Source of the DNA: Bacteroidota bacterium
Lineage (GTDB): Bacteria > Bacteroidota > Bacteroidia > Bacteroidales > UBA4417
NCBI GenBank assembly: GCA_013376995.1
Contig: JACAAZ010000005.1
Span: 186,001 to 250,000, forward strand
Length of the DNA stretch: 64,000 nucleotides
Reading direction: 5' to 3'
A model generated the notes under the pieces. The model had not been told where the DNA came from and searched no databases. It worked only from the letters and a program-made list of their open reading frames with translations. Shown here one piece after another: positions 5,875-57,554 of the stretch. Position numbers and translations under genes: made by a program. Numbering within the stretch: the first letter of the stretch is position 1; every line of letters begins with the position of its first letter.

Positions 5875-6438
5875 TTATTTTACGCGTTCCACATAGGCAC
5901 CAGTGCGGGTATCTACCTTGATACGTGCACCAGCATCGAGGAAAAGAGGAACCCTCACAGTTGCACCTGTTTCAACAGTTGCAGGTTTTAGTGTATTGGT
6001 AGCAGTATCTCCACGCAGACCAGGTTCAGTATAGGTAATTTCAAGTTCAACAGATGTGGGAAGTTCACAGCTAAGCAATACTTCATTATCAGCATGGAAA
6101 ACGAGGTCACAGGTAATTCCTTCTTTCAGAAATTCATATCCTTCAATCATATTTTCTTCGATATTGATCTGGTCAAAGGTTTCTGAGTTCATGAAATTGT
6201 AGCCGTTTTCATCCTTATAGAGGAACTGGTACTGCCTGCGTTCAATACGTGCAATATCAATCTTTTCACCAGCATCAAAAGTATTATCGATTACTTTACC
6301 TGTTTTGAGATTTTTGAGTTTCGTGCGGACATAAGCAGCGCCTTTCCCGGGCTTTACATGTTGGAAATCAACAATTTTAAACAGGTCATTCTTAAATTCA
6401 ATGCAGAGTCCGTTGCGGAAATCAGAAGTATTTGCCAT
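5875..6438 (-). CDS. efp: Translation elongation factor P
   Basis: EF-P relieves ribosome stalling at polyproline motifs by binding between the P and E sites. The 187-residue length and three beta-barrel domains are standard: KOW-like domain I at residues 1-65, OB domain II at 66-128 and OB domain III at 129-187. The modification loop reads [10 protein letters not shown] with Lys32 at the tip, so a lysine-type (EpmA-like or unmodified) EF-P is expected rather than the Arg32/EarP type. The conserved C-terminal [17 protein letters not shown] segment is complete. A TACTTTTG box lies about 40 bases upstream. It is followed by the second lpxD on the same strand. Confidence 0.97.
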
Positions 6439-6812: not shown

Positions 6813-7850
6813 ATGAAAACAATTTCGATAATCAGAATCCTCTGCACCACCACTTTGTTATTTGTTATTTTATTGAATGCTTATCCACAAGCTCCTACTG
6901 CCGGCCTGATCGGATATTATCCGTTCAATGGAAATGCAAATGATGAAAGTGGAAACCAGTTTCACGGAAGTGGATACAATATCATGCCTGTATCAGACCG
7001 CTTTGGTTTAGCCAATAAAGCATATGCATTCGATGGTGAATCTTCGTATATCATCCTGCCAACATCCTTCGACGTTTTTCCAAGGACTATTGACTTATGG
7101 TTCAATACAGCAATGGCGGATTATAGCCAGGGATACGGATCTATTTACCAGTCGGATAATCCAAACCTGCACTATGGTAATTCTGGTATTGCTGTAATTG
7201 AGATAGATGGACAAAAAAAGTTGCTGCTGACAATATCTGCGGTTTCGGATACTATAGATATTAATCCCAATACCTGGTACAATGTGGCTATTGTTGTTAC
7301 TGAAAACCAGGAAATCAATTATTACCTGGATGGTTCTTTTCTGAAAACAAAGACATTTTCACCCTTTATTACATCGTACAACGGAATTGAAAATACTACG
7401 ATTATTGGTGCAAACAGGATTTTATCAGCTAACTTTTTTGACGGAATCATTGATGATATCCGGATCTATAACAGGGCATTGTACGAAAGAGAGATCGACC
7501 AGATCTATCATGAAGGTGCTGTTACCAGTTATGTTAGCGTTACTGATACTTTGATCATTAATATGAATCTGCTCGGCTCTAATCCGGTTATCTATCAAAA
7601 TTCGATTAAAGTCTATCCCAATCCGACAAATAAGTATCTTACCATTGATTGCGGTGTAAACTATCCCATGCTATCAATGAATAGCATCAAAATAGCGAAT
7701 TCAGCGGGGGAAACCATGTTCTCATCTATTATCAATAAGCAGCAATTCCAGATGGATTTGACTAGCTGGACAGGCAATGGCTTATATTTAATCTATATCT
7801 TAGATTCCCAAAACAACATCATAGAAGTAAAGAAGATCCTGCTGCAATAG
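6813..7850 (+). CDS. Secreted LamG-domain protein with T9SS sorting domain
   Basis: Predicted surface or secreted protein. Residues 1-26 form a signal peptide ending near YPQA. Residues 30-220 form a concanavalin-like LamG/laminin jelly roll: it opens with GLIGYYPFNGNANDESG and closes with FFDGIIDDIRIYNRAL, both diagnostic of this fold. Residues 265-345 are a type A T9SS C-terminal sorting domain with the VYPNPTNKYL motif and a GLYLIYILD strand. No catalytic domain is visible, so it is probably an adhesin or glycan-binding protein delivered by T9SS. It faces the M14 peptidase gene 50 bases downstream and is part of the plus-strand block that interrupts the lipid A genes. Confidence 0.85.
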   Translation: MKTISIIRILCTTTLLFVILLNAYPQAPTAGLIGYYPFNGNANDESGNQFHGSGYNIMPVSDRFGLANKAYAFDGESSYIILPTSFDVFPRTIDLWFNTAMADYSQGYGSIYQSDNPNLHYGNSGIAVIEIDGQKKLLLTISAVSDTIDINPNTWYNVAIVVTENQEINYYLDGSFLKTKTFSPFITSYNGIENTTIIGANRILSANFFDGIIDDIRIYNRALYEREIDQIYHEGAVTSYVSVTDTLIINMNLLGSNPVIYQNSIKVYPNPTNKYLTIDCGVNYPMLSMNSIKIANSAGETMFSSIINKQQFQMDLTSWTGNGLYLIYILDSQNNIIEVKKILLQ

Positions 7851-7900
7851 GTTCTTAAAATATCTATGATTCATTAAACTTCGTTTTTTATCTCAATCTC

Positions 7901-9904
7901 ATGAAGAAATTCCTCTTCGGTTGCTGCTTTTTCCTGTTTTTACTTTCGTCATTTGCCCAAAAAGGATGGAGAGATAGTGAAATGGAAATTAAGGTATTTC
8001 TGAACAACCAGTCAGAAGCAAAAGTATTGCATGACCTGCATCTTAGTGGTGACATTCATATGAATGGTGGCTTTGCCCTGATGTATGTTGTCCCTGATGA
8101 ACTTGAAAGAATCAAAGACAGTCAGTTGAGATATGAACTGTTGATATCGGACCTCAATGCTTATTACAATAATTTTTGGAATCCAGCCAATGAGCAGTAC
8201 CATAGCTATGACCAGATTATTTCGCTTATGGACAGCCTGGCTACCGCTTTTCCAGGTATCTGTAAGAAAATCATTTTAGGAACATCATTACAGGGAAGGC
8301 AGATCGCTTGTCTCAAGATAAGTGACAATGTTGATATTGATGAAAACGAAGCAGAAGTTGCCTTTGATGGCGGAATTCATGGGGATGAAATCGGTGGCCC
8401 TGAGAATCTTATCCGTTTTGCCAGGGACCTTTGCACAGGTTATGGTTCCAACACCCAATACACTGATTTGATTAATTCACGCGAAATCTACATCTACCCC
8501 ATGGTCAATCCTGACGGAAGGGTGAACATGTCCAGGACCAATGCCCATGGAGTGGATTGCAACCGCGACTTCGGCTATATGTGGAATGGGGAGGGTAGTA
8601 GTATCAATCCTTTTTCACAGATCGAAACGAGGGTAATGCGTGACTTCATGAATGCACATCCTTTTAGCATCCACGTTACCTACCACAGCGGAATAGAAGA
8701 AGTGATATTTCCCTGGTGCTACAGGGCAAGCCATGCCCCGGATTATAACAACTTTACTTACCTGTCAGCTTTGTACTCATCATCATCGGGTTATTCCAAT
8801 CTGCCTTATCTTCAGTCTTATGCTGATTATCCAACCAATGGTGAACTGATCGATGACAGTTATGGCTTAAATGGCCCGGTAAGCCTTACGGTGGAGATCT
8901 CCTATGATAAACAGCCGACGGATATTTTAGGCTATTATCAAAAGAATATTACTCCTATGGTAAATATGATCAAAAATGCAGGTTATGGGTTGGAAGGATT
9001 GATAACAGACAGTATTACAGGAAAACCAGTCGCAGCTGCAATATTCATCGATAATTTTTACCCGGTTTTTTCCGATACCCTGGTGGGCGATTTTCACAAG
9101 TTTGTATTGCCCGGAACCTATACGCTTACGGTCAAGGCTAACAATTATGAAACCCGGGTTATAAGTGGAGTTATGGTTACATCGGGAACGTCGACTTTTA
9201 CGAATGTTTTGATGAAACCAGCTAATGGAAGTCATGTCGCCAAAGTAGCCTGTGTTGTAATCCCTGATAACAATCCGGCTGATGAAGCCAATACTCCGGC
9301 GGTTATTGGTGCTGCAGATAATGTGAACTATTCGTTGGGGAGGAGCGGCTGGATTATTTTAGATATGTTGCAACCTGTTTTAAATATCAATGGAAACGAT
9401 TTTAAGATTTATGAAGGTGATGCAACACCCGAAGGTTATACGTGTATGGTATCACAATCGATGGAAGGGCTTTGGAGCAATTTGGGAACGGGGTTGGGAT
9501 CAAAAGAATTTGACCTTGCCACGCTTAATTCAATCAGATATATCAAGATCAAGGATGATGGTGACGGTGTGGCTAACATTGCTGATGCAGGGTTTGACCT
9601 GGATGCCGTTGAAGTGCTGGGACAGGTTGTAGGTGTAAATCCTGAAGTTAATTCGATTGTTCCAGTTATATATCCGAATCCTGCAAATAATGAGTTGAAC
9701 ATAGGCACAAAGATGAATTCAGCCGGATGTTTTGAATTGATTTTAAGTAATATGTTAGGGCAGTATGTATTTTACATTAAAACTGAATTAAAAGAATTTT
9801 ACAGGTTGAATGTTTCAAATCTTGATGAAGGGATTTACCTTTTGACACTCAAATGCGATAAAGGAATATTTCAACAGAAAATAATTGTGAAGCATAATAA
9901 GTAG
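7901..9904 (+). CDS. Secreted M14 zinc carboxypeptidase with T9SS sorting domain
   Basis: Extracellular metallocarboxypeptidase. Signal peptide at residues 1-19 (ending FAQ). The M14 domain at about 95-355 has the zinc ligands His160 and Glu163 in GGIHGDEIGGPEN, the substrate-binding Asn-Arg in DCNRDFGY, the third ligand His262 in TYHSGIEE and the catalytic Glu332 in TVEISYDK. All key residues are intact, so activity is expected. A carboxypeptidase regulatory-like (transthyretin fold) domain follows at about 360-440, then a beta-rich region. A T9SS type A sorting domain (IYPNPANNEL near 590, ending KIIVKHNK) completes it. Long extracellular multidomain M14 enzymes of this type are common T9SS cargo. 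Confidence 0.92.
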   Translation: MKKFLFGCCFFLFLLSSFAQKGWRDSEMEIKVFLNNQSEAKVLHDLHLSGDIHMNGGFALMYVVPDELERIKDSQLRYELLISDLNAYYNNFWNPANEQYHSYDQIISLMDSLATAFPGICKKIILGTSLQGRQIACLKISDNVDIDENEAEVAFDGGIHGDEIGGPENLIRFARDLCTGYGSNTQYTDLINSREIYIYPMVNPDGRVNMSRTNAHGVDCNRDFGYMWNGEGSSINPFSQIETRVMRDFMNAHPFSIHVTYHSGIEEVIFPWCYRASHAPDYNNFTYLSALYSSSSGYSNLPYLQSYADYPTNGELIDDSYGLNGPVSLTVEISYDKQPTDILGYYQKNITPMVNMIKNAGYGLEGLITDSITGKPVAAAIFIDNFYPVFSDTLVGDFHKFVLPGTYTLTVKANNYETRVISGVMVTSGTSTFTNVLMKPANGSHVAKVACVVIPDNNPADEANTPAVIGAADNVNYSLGRSGWIILDMLQPVLNINGNDFKIYEGDATPEGYTCMVSQSMEGLWSNLGTGLGSKEFDLATLNSIRYIKIKDDGDGVANIADAGFDLDAVEVLGQVVGVNPEVNSIVPVIYPNPANNELNIGTKMNSAGCFELILSNMLGQYVFYIKTELKEFYRLNVSNLDEGIYLLTLKCDKGIFQQKIIVKHNK

Positions 9905-9913
9905 CTTGAACAA

Positions 9914-10915
9914 ATGAAGATACTACTCACTATTTTTTTGATAATTCTGAGTTTGCAGTTCCTTGCCCAGAATCCAAGGCCTGAAGATTTTGGATTCAGG
10001 CACCTGCAAATGATGTATAAGGGTGATTCTGTCGATATTTTATTAAAATCGAAAGCAGGAGAGGAGTTTATAAGAAAACCGTTATTCTTGTTTTGCCAGG
10101 GGAGCCTGCCCCAACCTTTGATCAAGACCGATGGCAACCAGGCTTATTCGGTTTTCCCTTTCAACACAGATAGTCTTGTGAAAGATTTTCACCTGGTAAT
10201 CATAAGCAAGCCAAATATCCCGATTATTGCCGATGTTAATTCGCTTGGAACTAACTTCGTTTACCTGGACCCTGCTACTGGGAAATTTCCCAGGGCTTAT
10301 TCAGAACTCAACTTGCTGGATTACTATGTTGACCGGGATGAGGCAGTGATAGGATTTTTGTTAAAATTGCCCTTTGTTGCCAATACTGCACTAACAGTAG
10401 CAGGACATTCCGAAGGTAGTACAATTGCGGCTAAACTGGCAATGAAATCAAAGCGGGTTACTCACTTGATTTATGCCAGTGGTTGCCCGGTGGGCCGAAT
10501 GCTATCTATTGTTGAGAGAGACAGGTCGATGGAGGAGGATACTGATTCTACCCGTTTTGCCGAATCAGATTTTGATTACTGGGAAAGTATAGCAGGTAAT
10601 AAGGAAAATATGGATGATTCATATGGAGATACCTTTAAGGCGACATATGACTTTTCATATCCTCCGATTAACTACCTCCGTGAATTAAAGATACCTGTCC
10701 TGGTTTGTTATGGAACCAAAGACTGGAGCGCTCCTTTTAATGATTATTTAAGGTTCGAGATGATCAGGCAAAAGAAGAAGAATTTTACATTCAAAGCCTA
10801 TATCGGACTGGAGCACAATTTTTTTCCGCTGGATAAGCAAGGCCGTGCTAATCAGGAAATATTAAATTGGGATAAGGTTGCTGCAGATTGGCAGGAGTGG
10901 ATCCGTAAGAATTGA
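9914..10915 (+). CDS. Exported alpha/beta hydrolase
   Basis: Signal peptide at residues 1-18 (ending FLAQ), then an alpha/beta hydrolase fold. The nucleophile elbow is AGHSEGST (Ser near residue 169), the acid is probably the Asp in CYGTKDWSAPF, and the catalytic His is in GLEHNFFPLD near the C-terminus, so a full Ser-Asp-His triad is present. Substrate class cannot be told: esterase, peptidase and cutinase-like activities are all possible. There is no T9SS sorting domain, so a periplasmic location is likely. It begins 9 bases after the M14 gene and may be cotranscribed with it. Confidence 0.8.
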   Translation: MKILLTIFLIILSLQFLAQNPRPEDFGFRHLQMMYKGDSVDILLKSKAGEEFIRKPLFLFCQGSLPQPLIKTDGNQAYSVFPFNTDSLVKDFHLVIISKPNIPIIADVNSLGTNFVYLDPATGKFPRAYSELNLLDYYVDRDEAVIGFLLKLPFVANTALTVAGHSEGSTIAAKLAMKSKRVTHLIYASGCPVGRMLSIVERDRSMEEDTDSTRFAESDFDYWESIAGNKENMDDSYGDTFKATYDFSYPPINYLRELKIPVLVCYGTKDWSAPFNDYLRFEMIRQKKKNFTFKAYIGLEHNFFPLDKQGRANQEILNWDKVAADWQEWIRKN

Positions 10916-10931
10916 GTTCAAGTAAGCAGCA

Positions 10932-10959
10932 GGCAGTAGGCGGTAGGCAGTAGGCAGTA
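10932..10959. repeat. Four tandem GGCAGTA-type heptamers
   Basis: Four 7-bp units (GGCAGTA, GGCGGTA, GGCAGTA, GGCAGTA) flanked by degenerate AGCAG copies on both sides, just past the hydrolase stop codon. Slippage-prone non-coding repeat. Confidence 0.7.
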
Positions 10960-10982
10960 AGCAGAATCCAATAACCAATAAC

Positions 10983-11070
10983 TTACTTCTTATAATCATT
11001 AATCACAATTTCCTGTTTGCAGAAATCCTGTTCTGCTGCCTGTGAGTTTGAGCAAACGATAACAATGTGG
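10983..11070 (-). pseudogene. Remnant 3' end of a second copy of the ABC ATPase gene
   Basis: The minus strand encodes about 26 residues plus a stop that match the C-terminus of the ABC ATPase at 11775-12398 (from IVIVCSNSQAAE to INDYKK) with one amino-acid change (His to Gln). Over 84 bases I count nine differences, eight of them silent third-position changes. That pattern indicates divergence while the sequence was still under coding selection, not a recent copying event. Homology stops near 11070, and an in-frame stop at 11082-11084 closes the frame. The fragment and the intact gene flank the GxxExxY cassette. It cannot make a functional protein. Confidence 0.75.
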
Positions 11071-11111
11071 CTTTCATGTTTTCAAGGCCGTCGCCGGTGT
11101 TTATAAAATAA

Positions 11112-11671
11112 ATGCCACAAAGGCACAAAGACACTAAGATTCACAAAGATTTTCCTAATTTTACATTTCTTTTTTATATGTTAAATTATTCTATTTCAAT
11201 TATTATGGAAACATCAGAAAAACACGATGGTAAACGGGGTAAGGAACATCTCCCTATTCCTGAATTTGTTGACAATCTTGCAAAGCAGGTAATTGATGCC
11301 GCCTTCAAAGTGCATTATAATCTTGGGCCTGGTCTCCTTGAGAAAGTGTATGAAGCTTGCTTTTGCTATGAATTACAGAAGAAAGGCTTGAACTTTCAGA
11401 GACAGGTTGATATTCCAATAACCTATGATAATTTGGTATTTAAGGAGGGGTTAAGGCTTGATGTAATTATCGAAGATAGCATCATTTGTGAGCTCAAAGC
11501 AATAGAAACAGTTAATCCGGTTTGGAAGGCACAAGTTTTAAGTCATCTTAAGCTTACAGGAATACGCTTAGGATTTCTAATCAATTTTGATGTTCCAAGA
11601 ATTAAGGAAGGTGTAACCCGAATTGTTCTTTAACCTTTGTGTTACTTTGTGCCTTCGTGTCTTCGTGGCAT
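11112..11671 (+). mobile_element. 560-bp GxxExxY cassette bounded by 27-bp inverted repeats
   Basis: The left end (11112-11138, starting ATGCCACAAAGGCACAAAG) and the right end (11645-11671, whose complement starts ATGCCACGAAGACACGAAG) match at 22 of 27 positions as inverted repeats. Each end is built from short CACAAAG/CACGAAG units. The only gene inside is the GxxExxY protein. No transposase is encoded and I see no clear target-site duplication. The symmetrical ends and small cargo suggest a mobilizable unit. How it moves is unknown. Confidence 0.6.
11205..11633 (+). CDS. GxxExxY family protein (PD-(D/E)XK nuclease-like fold)
   Basis: A 142-residue protein of the GxxExxY family. The naming motif is at Gly43-Leu-Leu-Glu46-Lys-Val-Tyr49, and the nuclease-like signature follows at Asp86 and Glu96-Leu-Lys98 (DVIIEDSIICELKA). 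The family is assigned to the PD-(D/E)XK superfamily from sequence similarity; to my knowledge no function is firmly established. I chose the ATG at 11205 because the open frame upstream to 11112 is a translation of the left inverted repeat. The same family is known to occur in intervening sequences and repeat-flanked cassettes, consistent with the inverted repeats here. The gene stop lies 11 bases before the right repeat. Confidence 0.85.
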   Translation: METSEKHDGKRGKEHLPIPEFVDNLAKQVIDAAFKVHYNLGPGLLEKVYEACFCYELQKKGLNFQRQVDIPITYDNLVFKEGLRLDVIIEDSIICELKAIETVNPVWKAQVLSHLKLTGIRLGFLINFDVPRIKEGVTRIVL

Positions 11672-11774
11672 CACTATCGCACTTGGAAGAGTAAGGCACT
11701 GTTAGTTTCAAAAATTTATAGGGAAATTTGCAGAAAGTTGCAGATATAGAAAGAGTTAGATTGAATTTTCTTTC

Positions 11775-12398
11775 TTATTTCTTATAATCGTTGATCACAA
11801 TTTCCTGTTTACAGAAATCATGTTCTGCTGCCTGGGAGTTTGAGCAAACAATTACTATCCTGTCTTCCCGGTTTGACAGAAGTAGTTCCCTGAACCAGTC
11901 TATTCCTTGCTGATCCAGGTTTGAGGTGGGTTCATCAAGAAGAACAAGAGGGGTGTTGCTTAGGATAGCCAGGGCAAGCTTAACTCTCTGTTTCATGCCT
12001 GAGGAAAAGTATTTGATAGGCTTGTTGCGGCTTCCTGTCAGGGTTGTAGCCTTTATCACCGCCTCTTCATCCATGTTATTCCGGAATTTCTTGAACTGAT
12101 GGTGGAAACGGACCATCTCAGAAAGAGTAAATTCTTCCAGCAGTTCAAGGTAGGGGCCGCTGTAAGAAACATGGCGAAAGAAATCATCAGGCTCAAGCAC
12201 TTTGCCATCCAGATGATAATTTATTTTACCGGTACTGGGATGAAGATGGCCTGAAATGATCTGTAGCAATGTGGATTTGCCAGAGCCATTGGAACCGAGG
12301 ATGGCATATGCATTACCGCTTTCAAATTCAAAGTCAAGGCTCCGAAAGATCCATTCATAATTGTATTTCCGGCCTATATTCTCCAGGATGATCTTCAT
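11775..12398 (-). CDS. ABC transporter ATP-binding protein (stand-alone)
   Basis: A single nucleotide-binding domain of 207 residues. Walker A is GSNGSGKST, the signature motif is FSSGMKQRVKLAL (SSGMK in place of LSGGQ) and Walker B is LVLLDEPTSNLD. I start it at the ATG at 12398; an in-frame TTG two codons earlier is less likely. No permease gene adjoins, so the partner must be encoded elsewhere. The position directly after lpxA on the same strand (24-base gap) suggests a link to envelope lipid or LPS handling, but that is inference. The C-terminus is duplicated as a remnant at 10983-11070 on the far side of the GxxExxY cassette. Confidence 0.9.
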   Translation of the reverse strand: MKIILENIGRKYNYEWIFRSLDFEFESGNAYAILGSNGSGKSTLLQIISGHLHPSTGKINYHLDGKVLEPDDFFRHVSYSGPYLELLEEFTLSEMVRFHHQFKKFRNNMDEEAVIKATTLTGSRNKPIKYFSSGMKQRVKLALAILSNTPLVLLDEPTSNLDQQGIDWFRELLLSNREDRIVIVCSNSQAAEHDFCKQEIVINDYKK

Positions 12399-54647: not shown

Positions 54648-56075
54648 TTATTTCTTTAACCATGGACTTTCAAATCCAAGTTTCTTGAGACCATTCTGAA
54701 TATCCGGAATTTGCATAAATAAGTTCCACAGCAAGCCTGAGCGGTAATTCTCGATCATGACTACTATCGGCCCCTGGTCAATTGCCAGGTGGCTTTTAGC
54801 GTACCAATTATGGGATTCACTAAACCCATCGACAAAGCCATACTGGCTCCATATTTTACCTCCGAGGTCATAATAAAAGTGCCGGAGTGCTTGCATAGAA
54901 TATTCAGGTGTATAAGGAAAGGACGAAATAGCAGCTGTTGGTTGTATCACACCCATATCAACTTCGGGACAATGAGCAACATACCCTTTATAGCTGTCGC
55001 CTGCAGTCAATCCCCAGCAATTTTCGCCATAACCTTTATAATGTTTGGGGTTTTCAATACAGTAAGCCCTGTTAATAAGAGTATGGTTTCGAACCTGTTC
55101 CCAGTAATCAATACCAAGAGAATCTTTAAGCCCGCGTGGATCAATGCCCTGAAACGTGTATTGTTCGAAAAACAGTGGCCCGCCCTTATCATAGTTTCCG
55201 AGGGGAAGGATATATCCATAGTAGGATTTGCCATTTCTGAAACCACTGCTACCTGCCCATCCGCCTTCATAAACTGCCTTTGAAATTGAATGGTAAGGTG
55301 AAGATGCAGCCATTATATAGGTAATCAGGCATTCGTTCCAACCCCAGATCGGGAAATTCATATCGAATCCGTTATTGGGGCTCCAATGCCAGTAAAGTTT
55401 ATTCTCTCCTTTGGTGTGCCAATTCCAGTTAGCAACATTCCACATCTGGTCGATGCGCTTACGAAGGTACTTTTCAGCGGTATTATCAGCCTTGAAATAT
55501 TCCCGTGCACAGAGGAAACCCATCATGAGGTAGGATGTTTCAACCAGATCGGCCCCATCGTCCAGCCTGTCGAATTTGATGGTTTTCCCGGTATTCCCAT
55601 CCATAAAATGAGGGTAGATACCATGGAAACAGTCTGCATTAGCAAGGAAATCAGCGATTTTTATCAGGCGGGTAACAGCAGCATCCCGTTTTATCCATCC
55701 ACGGCTTACGGCAACAATCGTACTCATGATCCCAAAGCCGGTTCCGCCTATGGCACATGCATCCGGGCCAAATGGTGTTTTGCTCAGGTTAGGTTCATCC
55801 CAGGCTTCGTTGATATAGTCCCAATAATGTTCGGCAAGTACAGTGTTGCTTCGCTCTCTTGCAAGGCCACTCACAGGATGCGCATCATTCCAAAAGAAGC
55901 GGAATGTTTGACGTTGAATAACATCCAAAAGGGCAGAGTCACTTAATCCTTTAATAACACCAACTACCGGAATCTCTTTTCCATTTGAGGTAATAACAGC
56001 CTTAGAATGCTGAGCAACAAGTTGAACCCCACAAAGCAGAATCAATAATAGAATTGAATATTTCAGATTGTCCAT
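54648..56075 (-). CDS. GH144/glucoamylase-family protein, single domain
   Basis: 475 residues, signal peptide ending near residue 22 (QLVAQ). A single (alpha/alpha)6-type catalytic domain of the PF10091 glycoamylase family, to which GH144 endo-beta-1,2-glucanases belong. Key positions: TFRFFWNDAHPVSGLARERS at the start, GGTGFGIMS, the acidic cluster Asp172, Asp176, Glu179 in LDDGADLVETSY, and GWNECLITYIMA with a likely catalytic Glu. The spacing of the three acids matches the essential Asp-Asp-Glu I recall for the Chitinophaga pinensis GH144 enzyme. It lies between two paralogues with gaps of 14 and 24 bases. Confidence 0.88.
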   Translation of the reverse strand: MDNLKYSILLLILLCGVQLVAQHSKAVITSNGKEIPVVGVIKGLSDSALLDVIQRQTFRFFWNDAHPVSGLARERSNTVLAEHYWDYINEAWDEPNLSKTPFGPDACAIGGTGFGIMSTIVAVSRGWIKRDAAVTRLIKIADFLANADCFHGIYPHFMDGNTGKTIKFDRLDDGADLVETSYLMMGFLCAREYFKADNTAEKYLRKRIDQMWNVANWNWHTKGENKLYWHWSPNNGFDMNFPIWGWNECLITYIMAASSPYHSISKAVYEGGWAGSSGFRNGKSYYGYILPLGNYDKGGPLFFEQYTFQGIDPRGLKDSLGIDYWEQVRNHTLINRAYCIENPKHYKGYGENCWGLTAGDSYKGYVAHCPEVDMGVIQPTAAISSFPYTPEYSMQALRHFYYDLGGKIWSQYGFVDGFSESHNWYAKSHLAIDQGPIVVMIENYRSGLLWNLFMQIPDIQNGLKKLGFESPWLKK

Positions 56076-56099
56076 TCCAGCCAGGATTACTCGATCTAT

Positions 56100-57458
56100 T
56101 TAATTTATTATTGAAGGACTTTGAAATCCAAGCTTTTGCAATCCCTTTTGAATTTCAGGACATGACATAAATAACTTCCACAAAAGGCCGGATCTGTAGT
56201 TTTCAATCATTACAGCAGCCGGACCCTGGTCAATAGCCAGGTATTGTGTCGGATACCAATTATTCTGAATACTGAAAGCATCGTAAAAGCCGTAATTCCC
56301 CCAGATCTTACCTCTAAGAGTAGAATAGAAATACCTGATAGCCTCAAGTGAATATTCAGGGGTGTAAGGGATAGAAGAAATTGCAGCAGTTGGAGAAATA
56401 ACGCCAAGATCATTATCTTTTCCAGGTGCATGTGCTGCATAGCCATTTATAGAATAGCTGGCAGTCAAGCCCCAGCAATCCTTACTATAACCTTTGAATT
56501 TCTTAGGATTCTCTATGCACCACTGCCTGTTAATAAGTGTTTGGTTTTTGTTTTCATCCCAATAGTTTGCATAATTATCCTTCAGTCCCCTTGGATCAAG
56601 ACCCAGGTAGGAATAATGTGCCCAGAATAAAGGACCGCCATATTCTAATGCCCCATTATGTTTTAGGTGAAGTGTATAGCCATATTTACTGGTTAGCCCA
56701 TTTATTGCTCCGTTTCTTGCCCATCCATTATGATAAGCAGAAGGAGGAACTGCATGAGTAGGAGAGGAGGCACCAAGAATATAGAGGATCAGGCATTCAT
56801 TGTACCCTTCAACGGGGAAATTCATTTCCCAACCATAATCAGGTGACCAATGCCAGTATATAACATCCTTTCCCCTTGTAAACCAGTCATATTCAACTCC
56901 AGTCCAGAGTTTGTCAATTCGATTAGCCAGTTCCTGCTCCCTGCTGTCACCATTTATGAAGTATTGCCTTACTGTAAGTAAACCCTGTAATAAGTATGAG
57001 GTTTCAACCAGGTCGGCACCATTGTCTTTCGTGCCAAATGGCTTAACTTTTCCTGTTTCACCATCCAGCCAGTGTGGCCATGCTCCATGGAATCTGTCCG
57101 CTTTCTCAAGGAAGCTTACAATTTGTTCAAAACGAGTCAGGCCTTGTTCACGGCTAATATAATTTCGTTCTATTCCGGCAATGATAGCCATGAATCCAAA
57201 TCCTGAACCTCCTGTCGTAACTATGTGCTGATCATTTTCAGGATAAACTCCATCCATGTGTATCCTTTCACAAGCCATCCCGGAATTCGGTTCAGCTCCT
57301 TTCCAGAAATATTGAAAAGTTTGATACTCAACCAGGTTGAGCAAGGAGTCATCCGTTATTTTAACTGATGGCTGGTGATTACCTGCTGTCTGTGTCCTGG
57401 CAGAACAAGCTATTAATATAAGGAGAATCAATGTACTGAAGAAGGTCGTTTTTTTCAT
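56100..57458 (-). CDS. GH144/glucoamylase-family lipoprotein
   Basis: 452 residues. Unlike the preceding paralogue it has a lipobox (LIAC, Cys18) and is predicted to be a lipoprotein. The catalytic domain is the same glycoamylase type: YQTFQYFWKGAEPNSGMACERIH, TTGGSGFGFMA, KDNGADLVETSYLLQG with the conserved Asp, Asp and Glu, and GYNECLILYILG. A lipid anchor suggests it works at the outer membrane, upstream of the soluble copies. No extra domains. It starts 96 bases after the GH43 gene. Confidence 0.88.
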   Translation of the reverse strand: MKKTTFFSTLILLILIACSARTQTAGNHQPSVKITDDSLLNLVEYQTFQYFWKGAEPNSGMACERIHMDGVYPENDQHIVTTGGSGFGFMAIIAGIERNYISREQGLTRFEQIVSFLEKADRFHGAWPHWLDGETGKVKPFGTKDNGADLVETSYLLQGLLTVRQYFINGDSREQELANRIDKLWTGVEYDWFTRGKDVIYWHWSPDYGWEMNFPVEGYNECLILYILGASSPTHAVPPSAYHNGWARNGAINGLTSKYGYTLHLKHNGALEYGGPLFWAHYSYLGLDPRGLKDNYANYWDENKNQTLINRQWCIENPKKFKGYSKDCWGLTASYSINGYAAHAPGKDNDLGVISPTAAISSIPYTPEYSLEAIRYFYSTLRGKIWGNYGFYDAFSIQNNWYPTQYLAIDQGPAAVMIENYRSGLLWKLFMSCPEIQKGLQKLGFQSPSIIN

Positions 57459-57554
57459 CGCTTTGATTTTTATTTACAAGCTTTCCGCTATATATTATTT
57501 GCAATCTATAGGTTTTTGCTATGGCTCATGGCTGATCCATAGACGGTTAAAAAG

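Follow-up and report, generated by a model that had tools for sequence, protein, structure and literature searches.

A truncated second copy of an ABC gene end beside a GxxExxY cassette in a Bacteroidota genome

In the Bacteroidota genome studied here, an intact ABC gene is followed by a small cassette and then, on the far side of that cassette, by a second version of the gene's own 3' end. We asked how a gene could come to have its last codons written twice, and whether the cassette had anything to do with it. The analysis covers the window, by which we mean the whole 64,000-nucleotide stretch of DNA (G000:C39:186001-250000), together with the genome from which it comes (5.05 Mb in 43 contigs; G000 in what follows) and its relatives.

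The gene, its second end and the cassette

The intact gene (11775..12398, minus strand) encodes an ABC-type ATPase that is CcmA-like by score, lies under the CcmA family cut-off and has its closest named relatives in uncultured Bacteroidales. It is the last gene of an lpxC/fabZ-lpxA-ABC run. The minus-strand order is lpxD, lpxC/fabZ, lpxA and ABC ATPase, which relatives continue with efp and a second lpxD-like gene, the lpx and efp names being given by homology and established pathway knowledge.

The remnant, at 10983..11066 and also on the minus strand, comprises 28 terminal codons, counting the stop, of a second ABC allele or homologue, in frame and truncated upstream. The stretch 10982-11066 aligns with 11774-11858 as an ungapped match of 85 b at 89% identity, and a search of flank against flank gave the duplicate an E value of ~2e-28. 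Our alignment and codon count agreed with the original prediction that 9 of the 84 bases differ and that 8 of these changes are silent; all nine fall at third codon positions. The sole replacement places Gln in the remnant where the intact gene has His, a position occupied by His or Tyr in the other aligned genus mates. The remnant translates as IVIVCSNSQAAEQDFCKQEIVINDYKK followed by the stop codon, with no internal frameshift or stop. It had been called a decayed copy, but it is truncated, not decayed.

The homology extends from approximately codon 182 of 209 to one base beyond the stop codon. The codons just before it (11067-11081) retain only a weak in-register similarity to the ABC gene and do not have the D/N/E-R pair that aligned relatives carry before the same strand. 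They form part of a 45-b spacer between remnant and cassette (11067..11111), for which neither the remaining genome nor the fetched loci gave a match. The minus-strand reading of this spacer, TGDGLENMKA, resembles what we take to be a histidine-kinase motif; across 16 genomes, a degenerate pattern of that type matched only in the window itself. On its other side the remnant faces the end of a convergent alpha/beta hydrolase gene (9914..10915, plus strand) at a distance of 67 b. Heptamer-like repeats (GGCAGTA) occupy 10921-10966 between the two, and repeats of the same type form a longer array at another locus, L088.

The cassette carries a gene (11112..11633, plus strand) for a GxxExxY / PDDEXK_3 protein, which scored 139.3 bits against TIGR04256 (cut-off 35) and 132.4 bits against PF13366 (cut-off 22); libraries of defence and phage families gave no match for it. 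The true start of the gene is probably 11205, because the first ~30 codons fall in or beside a repeat. Inverted-repeat comparison placed the left arm, of the GCCACAAAGGCACAAAG type, at 11112..11151 (plus) and the right arm at 11632..11671 (minus), each 40 b long, with a score of 22. A 103-b spacer (11672..11774) then leads to the ABC stop codon, and a search with 11673-11774 found no match in the fetched loci.

Two gene ends that diverged while coding

The original prediction held that the two ends had diverged while coding and that the insertion had therefore probably not created the remnant as a fresh duplicate. In our simulations both members of a pair began as the same sequence; purifying selection then acted on one of them while the other evolved freely, under a simple model in which transitions are favored and the constrained copy accepts silent changes only. 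When the remnant decayed freely from birth, no more than one replacement at 9 differences was seen in 4 of 4,000 pairs. When it was constrained for half its life the fraction was 2/88 (P 0.02), and constraint for 90% of its life raised it to 90/220 (0.41). By the NG86 method over 27 codons, dS between remnant and ABC gene was ~0.93, a rough value resting on 8 silent changes, and dN was 0.015. The resulting dN/dS of ~0.016 is below that of the ABC gene against G014, the nearest genome compared (dN 0.24, dS saturated), which was unexpected but comes from 27 codons. These results support both parts of the prediction: the copies diverged while both were coding, and the duplicate is not fresh. A local duplication created by the insertion, with ordinary decay of the outer copy afterwards, would be simple, and some mobile elements do duplicate their target, but the silent bias in the simulation rejects it and we regard it as highly improbable.

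The third positions of remnant and ABC gene were identical in 18 of 27 codons, compared with 0.42-0.50 against G014 for efp, ABC, lpxA and lpxC. Taken with the constraint simulation, this suggests that the separation of the two ends probably postdates the split from G014 but is old, and that both were coding for most of the time since. The ABC tree does not contain the G000-G014 sister pair that is present in the lpxA and efp trees, and the pair is not rejected there (p-AU 0.238). The ABC gene and the second lpxD are fast-evolving in two pairs of genus mates; since the ABC gene evolves fast, the missing pair is not by itself evidence of import.

One copy in relatives, and a junction that turns over

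We then looked for the remnant and for further copies of the gene elsewhere. The remnant was present in none of the 15 genus mates, where it matched only each genome's own ABC 3' end when used as a query, and it is private to G000 among the genomes compared. Thus no relative was seen with the remnant and without the cassette, which the original prediction had named as a sign of an older event. A full-length second copy, the other finding that would have spoken against that prediction, was not found in a search of the genome either: the best match beyond the ABC gene itself was the remnant (84% over 32 residues), and the next were general ABC proteins, none above 33% identity across half or more of the protein length. 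The closest genomes compared show ~67% (ABC) to 80% (lpxA) DNA identity, and no sampled species is as close to the remnant as the window's own ABC gene. Among 149 genomes, with 20 candidates scored in each, 26 had one match of at least 41% identity to the ABC protein and none had two, among the matches listed.

The original prediction had left two sources for the remnant, a foreign flank and a destroyed tandem gene, and the single copy in relatives favors the foreign allele. If two functional ABC genes had once stood in tandem, and the cassette or a deletion had left nothing of the downstream gene except its final 28 codons, the same coding-type divergence would be predicted and the copies would be adjacent and in the same orientation, as they are. 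That history would, however, require a duplication, a long co-existence and then a large deletion; no trace of the remaining ~540 b of a second gene was found in the genome, and each of the 26 genomes with the ABC family had one listed copy. A tandem paralogue is therefore less likely than an imported allele, and we consider it unlikely, though the strongest of the alternatives. The window does hold tandem paralogous genes elsewhere (54651-57473; 70% identical across their last 56 residues).

The ABC gene and efp lie on one contig in 11 of the 15 genus mates, separated by 117-265 b in ten and by 1.1 kb in the eleventh; in the other four, either different genes come next on the contig or no efp was found. 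In G000, the gap between the ABC gene and efp (5875..6438, minus strand), its ancestral downstream neighbor, is 5.3 kb and contains a LamG protein, an M14 peptidase, the hydrolase, the remnant and the cassette. The LamG and M14 proteins carry type IX sorting tails. The stretch 6813-10915 (LamG, M14 and hydrolase) forms an island between efp and the ABC gene that is private to G000. The hydrolase was found in none of the 15 mates and the gap in G000 is filled with other genes; the ABC-efp junction is thus a site of turnover.

We give about an even chance to the reading that the remnant is what is left, at the 3' end, of another allele of the same single-copy ABC gene, the lineages of the two alleles standing at roughly between-species distance, and that the import was one-sided. 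The resident chromosome would have read hydrolase, ABC', lpxA. A related, unsampled bacterium would have supplied a segment with the GxxExxY cassette, an ABC gene and part of lpxA. This segment may have entered by homologous recombination at its ABC/lpx end and by a non-homologous join at its opposite end, at around codon 182 within the resident ABC'. Such an exchange would leave an intact donor or hybrid ABC gene, the cassette, and the resident 3' end stranded beside its old neighbor. The homology stops at 11066 and gives way to the 45-b spacer without other match, as at a one-sided non-homologous junction. We infer which way the DNA was transferred, that homology served on one side only, and that a single event was involved. 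We favor the remnant as the resident allele because it lies 67 b from the convergent hydrolase, as the end of a resident gene might.

The same arrangement could be artificial, if sequences from two strains of the sampled population, one with hydrolase-ABC' and one with cassette-ABC, had been wrongly joined. Mixed strains are to be expected in environmental samples, and this is an assembly of 43 contigs with an estimated completeness of 96.66%. For a wrong join the two sequences would nevertheless have to share an exact word where they meet, and no such word is seen; a 274-kb contig in a genome of only 43 suggests that the assembly is good. We see only a slim chance of a chimera.

GxxExxY cassettes and duplicated gene ends

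To place the locus among others of its kind, we used a sample of 235 GxxExxY loci, 145 at first and then 90 more (87 of them tested). Among the 225 with usable flanks, a locus's own flanks scored at least 20 as inverted repeats in 124 cases, compared with 12 of 672 mismatched pairs. Each gene lies between arrays of short units (CACAAAGG-, ACGCAGATT- and CACGGAGG-like) that are inverted relative to each other and specific to the locus, and of these arrays we found no description in the literature searched. In 50 pairs of similar cassettes over 57 loci, two loci shared only an element of 380-650 b and their surroundings were unrelated, so the cassettes are probably mobile or exchanged. A cassette of ~530 b (loci L105, L103 and L101) is common to three genus mates at 76-86% identity. 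Elsewhere, gene-less end pieces of ~75-115 b resemble non-autonomous copies. A search for empty sites of two genus cassettes placed flanks and cassette on different contigs and yielded no readable empty site.

A gene-end duplicate across the cassette was clear in two of the 235 loci, the window's own (L057) and L217, and plausible in a third, L200. At L217 the 3' end of an HsdR gene is duplicated over 48 b with 3 differences. At L200 an HsdM gene now runs into the flanking repeat and stops there, and a displaced 3' end lies across the cassette, with ~23 b shared; by hand count, 5 of the 6 differences between the copies are silent. The L217 HsdR 3' end occurs in three copies: full, 15 codons and ~6 codons. 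Both cassettes (L217, 2115-3110; L200, 2330-2960) lie inside type I restriction operons, with blocks running from TTGTCTGAAC to GTTCAAGACTA. At least two of the defined end motifs of L200 and L217 occurred in 7 of 145 loci, most of them single or near matches.

Besides these three, the scan of the first 145 loci flagged L166, rejected since the match was repeat-derived, and L157, an artefact of an open frame of N. The 90 further loci added none, their sole flag (L298) also being repeat-derived. The genus gave 49 locus entries, often several overlapping ones for a single gene, and 47 were tested. The one coding duplicate among them was that of the window's own locus; apart from a 32-b match in L070, the remaining flank matches were cassette repeats. 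A tile control flagged 4 of 435 points: a tandem paralogue pair in the window accounted for two of these and weak matches for the other two. A test anchored on gene ends gave scores of at least 20 at 9 of 589 ends and at none of 2,312 mismatched ones. By eye, seven of the nine were cassette repeats, and gene bodies were matched only at L057 and L217. L187 and L204 were set aside as tandem paralogue pairs, presumably methylmalonyl-CoA mutase subunits, that match inside neighboring genes. Two loci of another genome (L155 and L185 of G052) have long direct repeats across the cassette (~330 b, 78-85%), which by eye contain the 5' end of an ABC-type gene, and a third (L184) has a weak match only.

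No general target-site duplication was detected at the 57 cassettes whose boundaries were set by pairwise comparison, where high scores came from the flanking repeats. Transposition with target-site duplication was likewise rejected for the window, where the copies carry nine silent-biased differences and stand 45 and 103 b from the repeats. Gene-end duplications therefore exist but are rare, at two or three of 235 loci, and mostly unrelated to the spread of the cassettes; they are not a habit of GxxExxY cassettes.

These counts also bear on another route to the same structure. The cassette might first have inserted in another species, duplicating a long piece of the ABC 3' end there, and then been moved here by ordinary two-sided homologous recombination, the duplicated ends serving for the exchange, so that one end would now come from the donor and the other from the recipient. 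Both the silent divergence and the clean 3' end would be accounted for, and the L217 and L200 cassettes, with their duplicated or displaced ends of type I restriction genes, offer parallels. The duplicate is not flush with the inverted repeats, however, there are three such cases only among 145 + 90 loci, and no general target duplication accompanies the 57 cassettes. We consider this route improbable, more so than a tandem paralogue.

Comparison with known systems

On the reading we prefer, a one-sided import of a foreign allele, the remnant is a small, clean record of recombination at the lpx operon with a lineage at between-species level. It also illustrates that as few as 84 bases can be enough for silent-site analysis to tell whether a copy is an imported allele or a fresh duplicate. 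The GxxExxY family is abundant yet little discussed, and its name is rare in the literature searched; if displaced gene ends were causally tied to GxxExxY proteins, they would give a functional handle on it. As a member of the GxxExxY (TIGR04256, PDDEXK_3) cassettes of Bacteroidota, the one in the window is typical in its gene and inverted flanking repeats and atypical in its gene-end duplicate.

In fungal mitochondria, mobile nuclease ORFs (Allomyces atp6, Rhizophagus) bring with them a replacement 3' end for the host gene. The likeness is close in layout, with an intact gene, a nuclease ORF and a displaced old 3' end at allelic divergence; a nuclease-type ORF between intact gene and displaced end is indeed present in the window. 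Some GxxExxY cassettes could then be bacterial homing elements, with putative cutting of the empty 3' end of a neighboring gene by the PD-(D/E)XK-type protein and repair that brings in the cassette and the donor end and displaces the old one, as candidates at the window, L200 and perhaps L217. In the fungal case, however, this is the regular outcome of homing, whereas here it is seen at no more than 3 of 235 loci and with no known cleavage. Recurrence of the homing type was not found in the 145 + 90 loci, L057 and L217 being clear and L200 plausible, and we think the homing reading very doubtful.

Closer to the preferred reading, an event of the type of homology-facilitated illegitimate recombination (HFIR) has been described experimentally (PMC3240628). 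The locus resembles it in its putative homologous anchor, its one non-homologous join, the new DNA next to that anchor and the resident end that stays behind, and differs in that donor, microhomology and uptake route are not visible at the locus. A study of T6SS effectors in Vibrio cholerae reports that an incoming module displaces a gene and shifts the old 3' part downstream, proposes an HFIR-like mechanism, and treats the displacement as a repeated event, presumably under selection for immunity genes (PMC5361080). Displacement by an incoming module would be common to both, but here there is a single scrap of a housekeeping-like ABC gene. The locus looks like an ordinary, well-preserved recombination scar, not a new kind of element.
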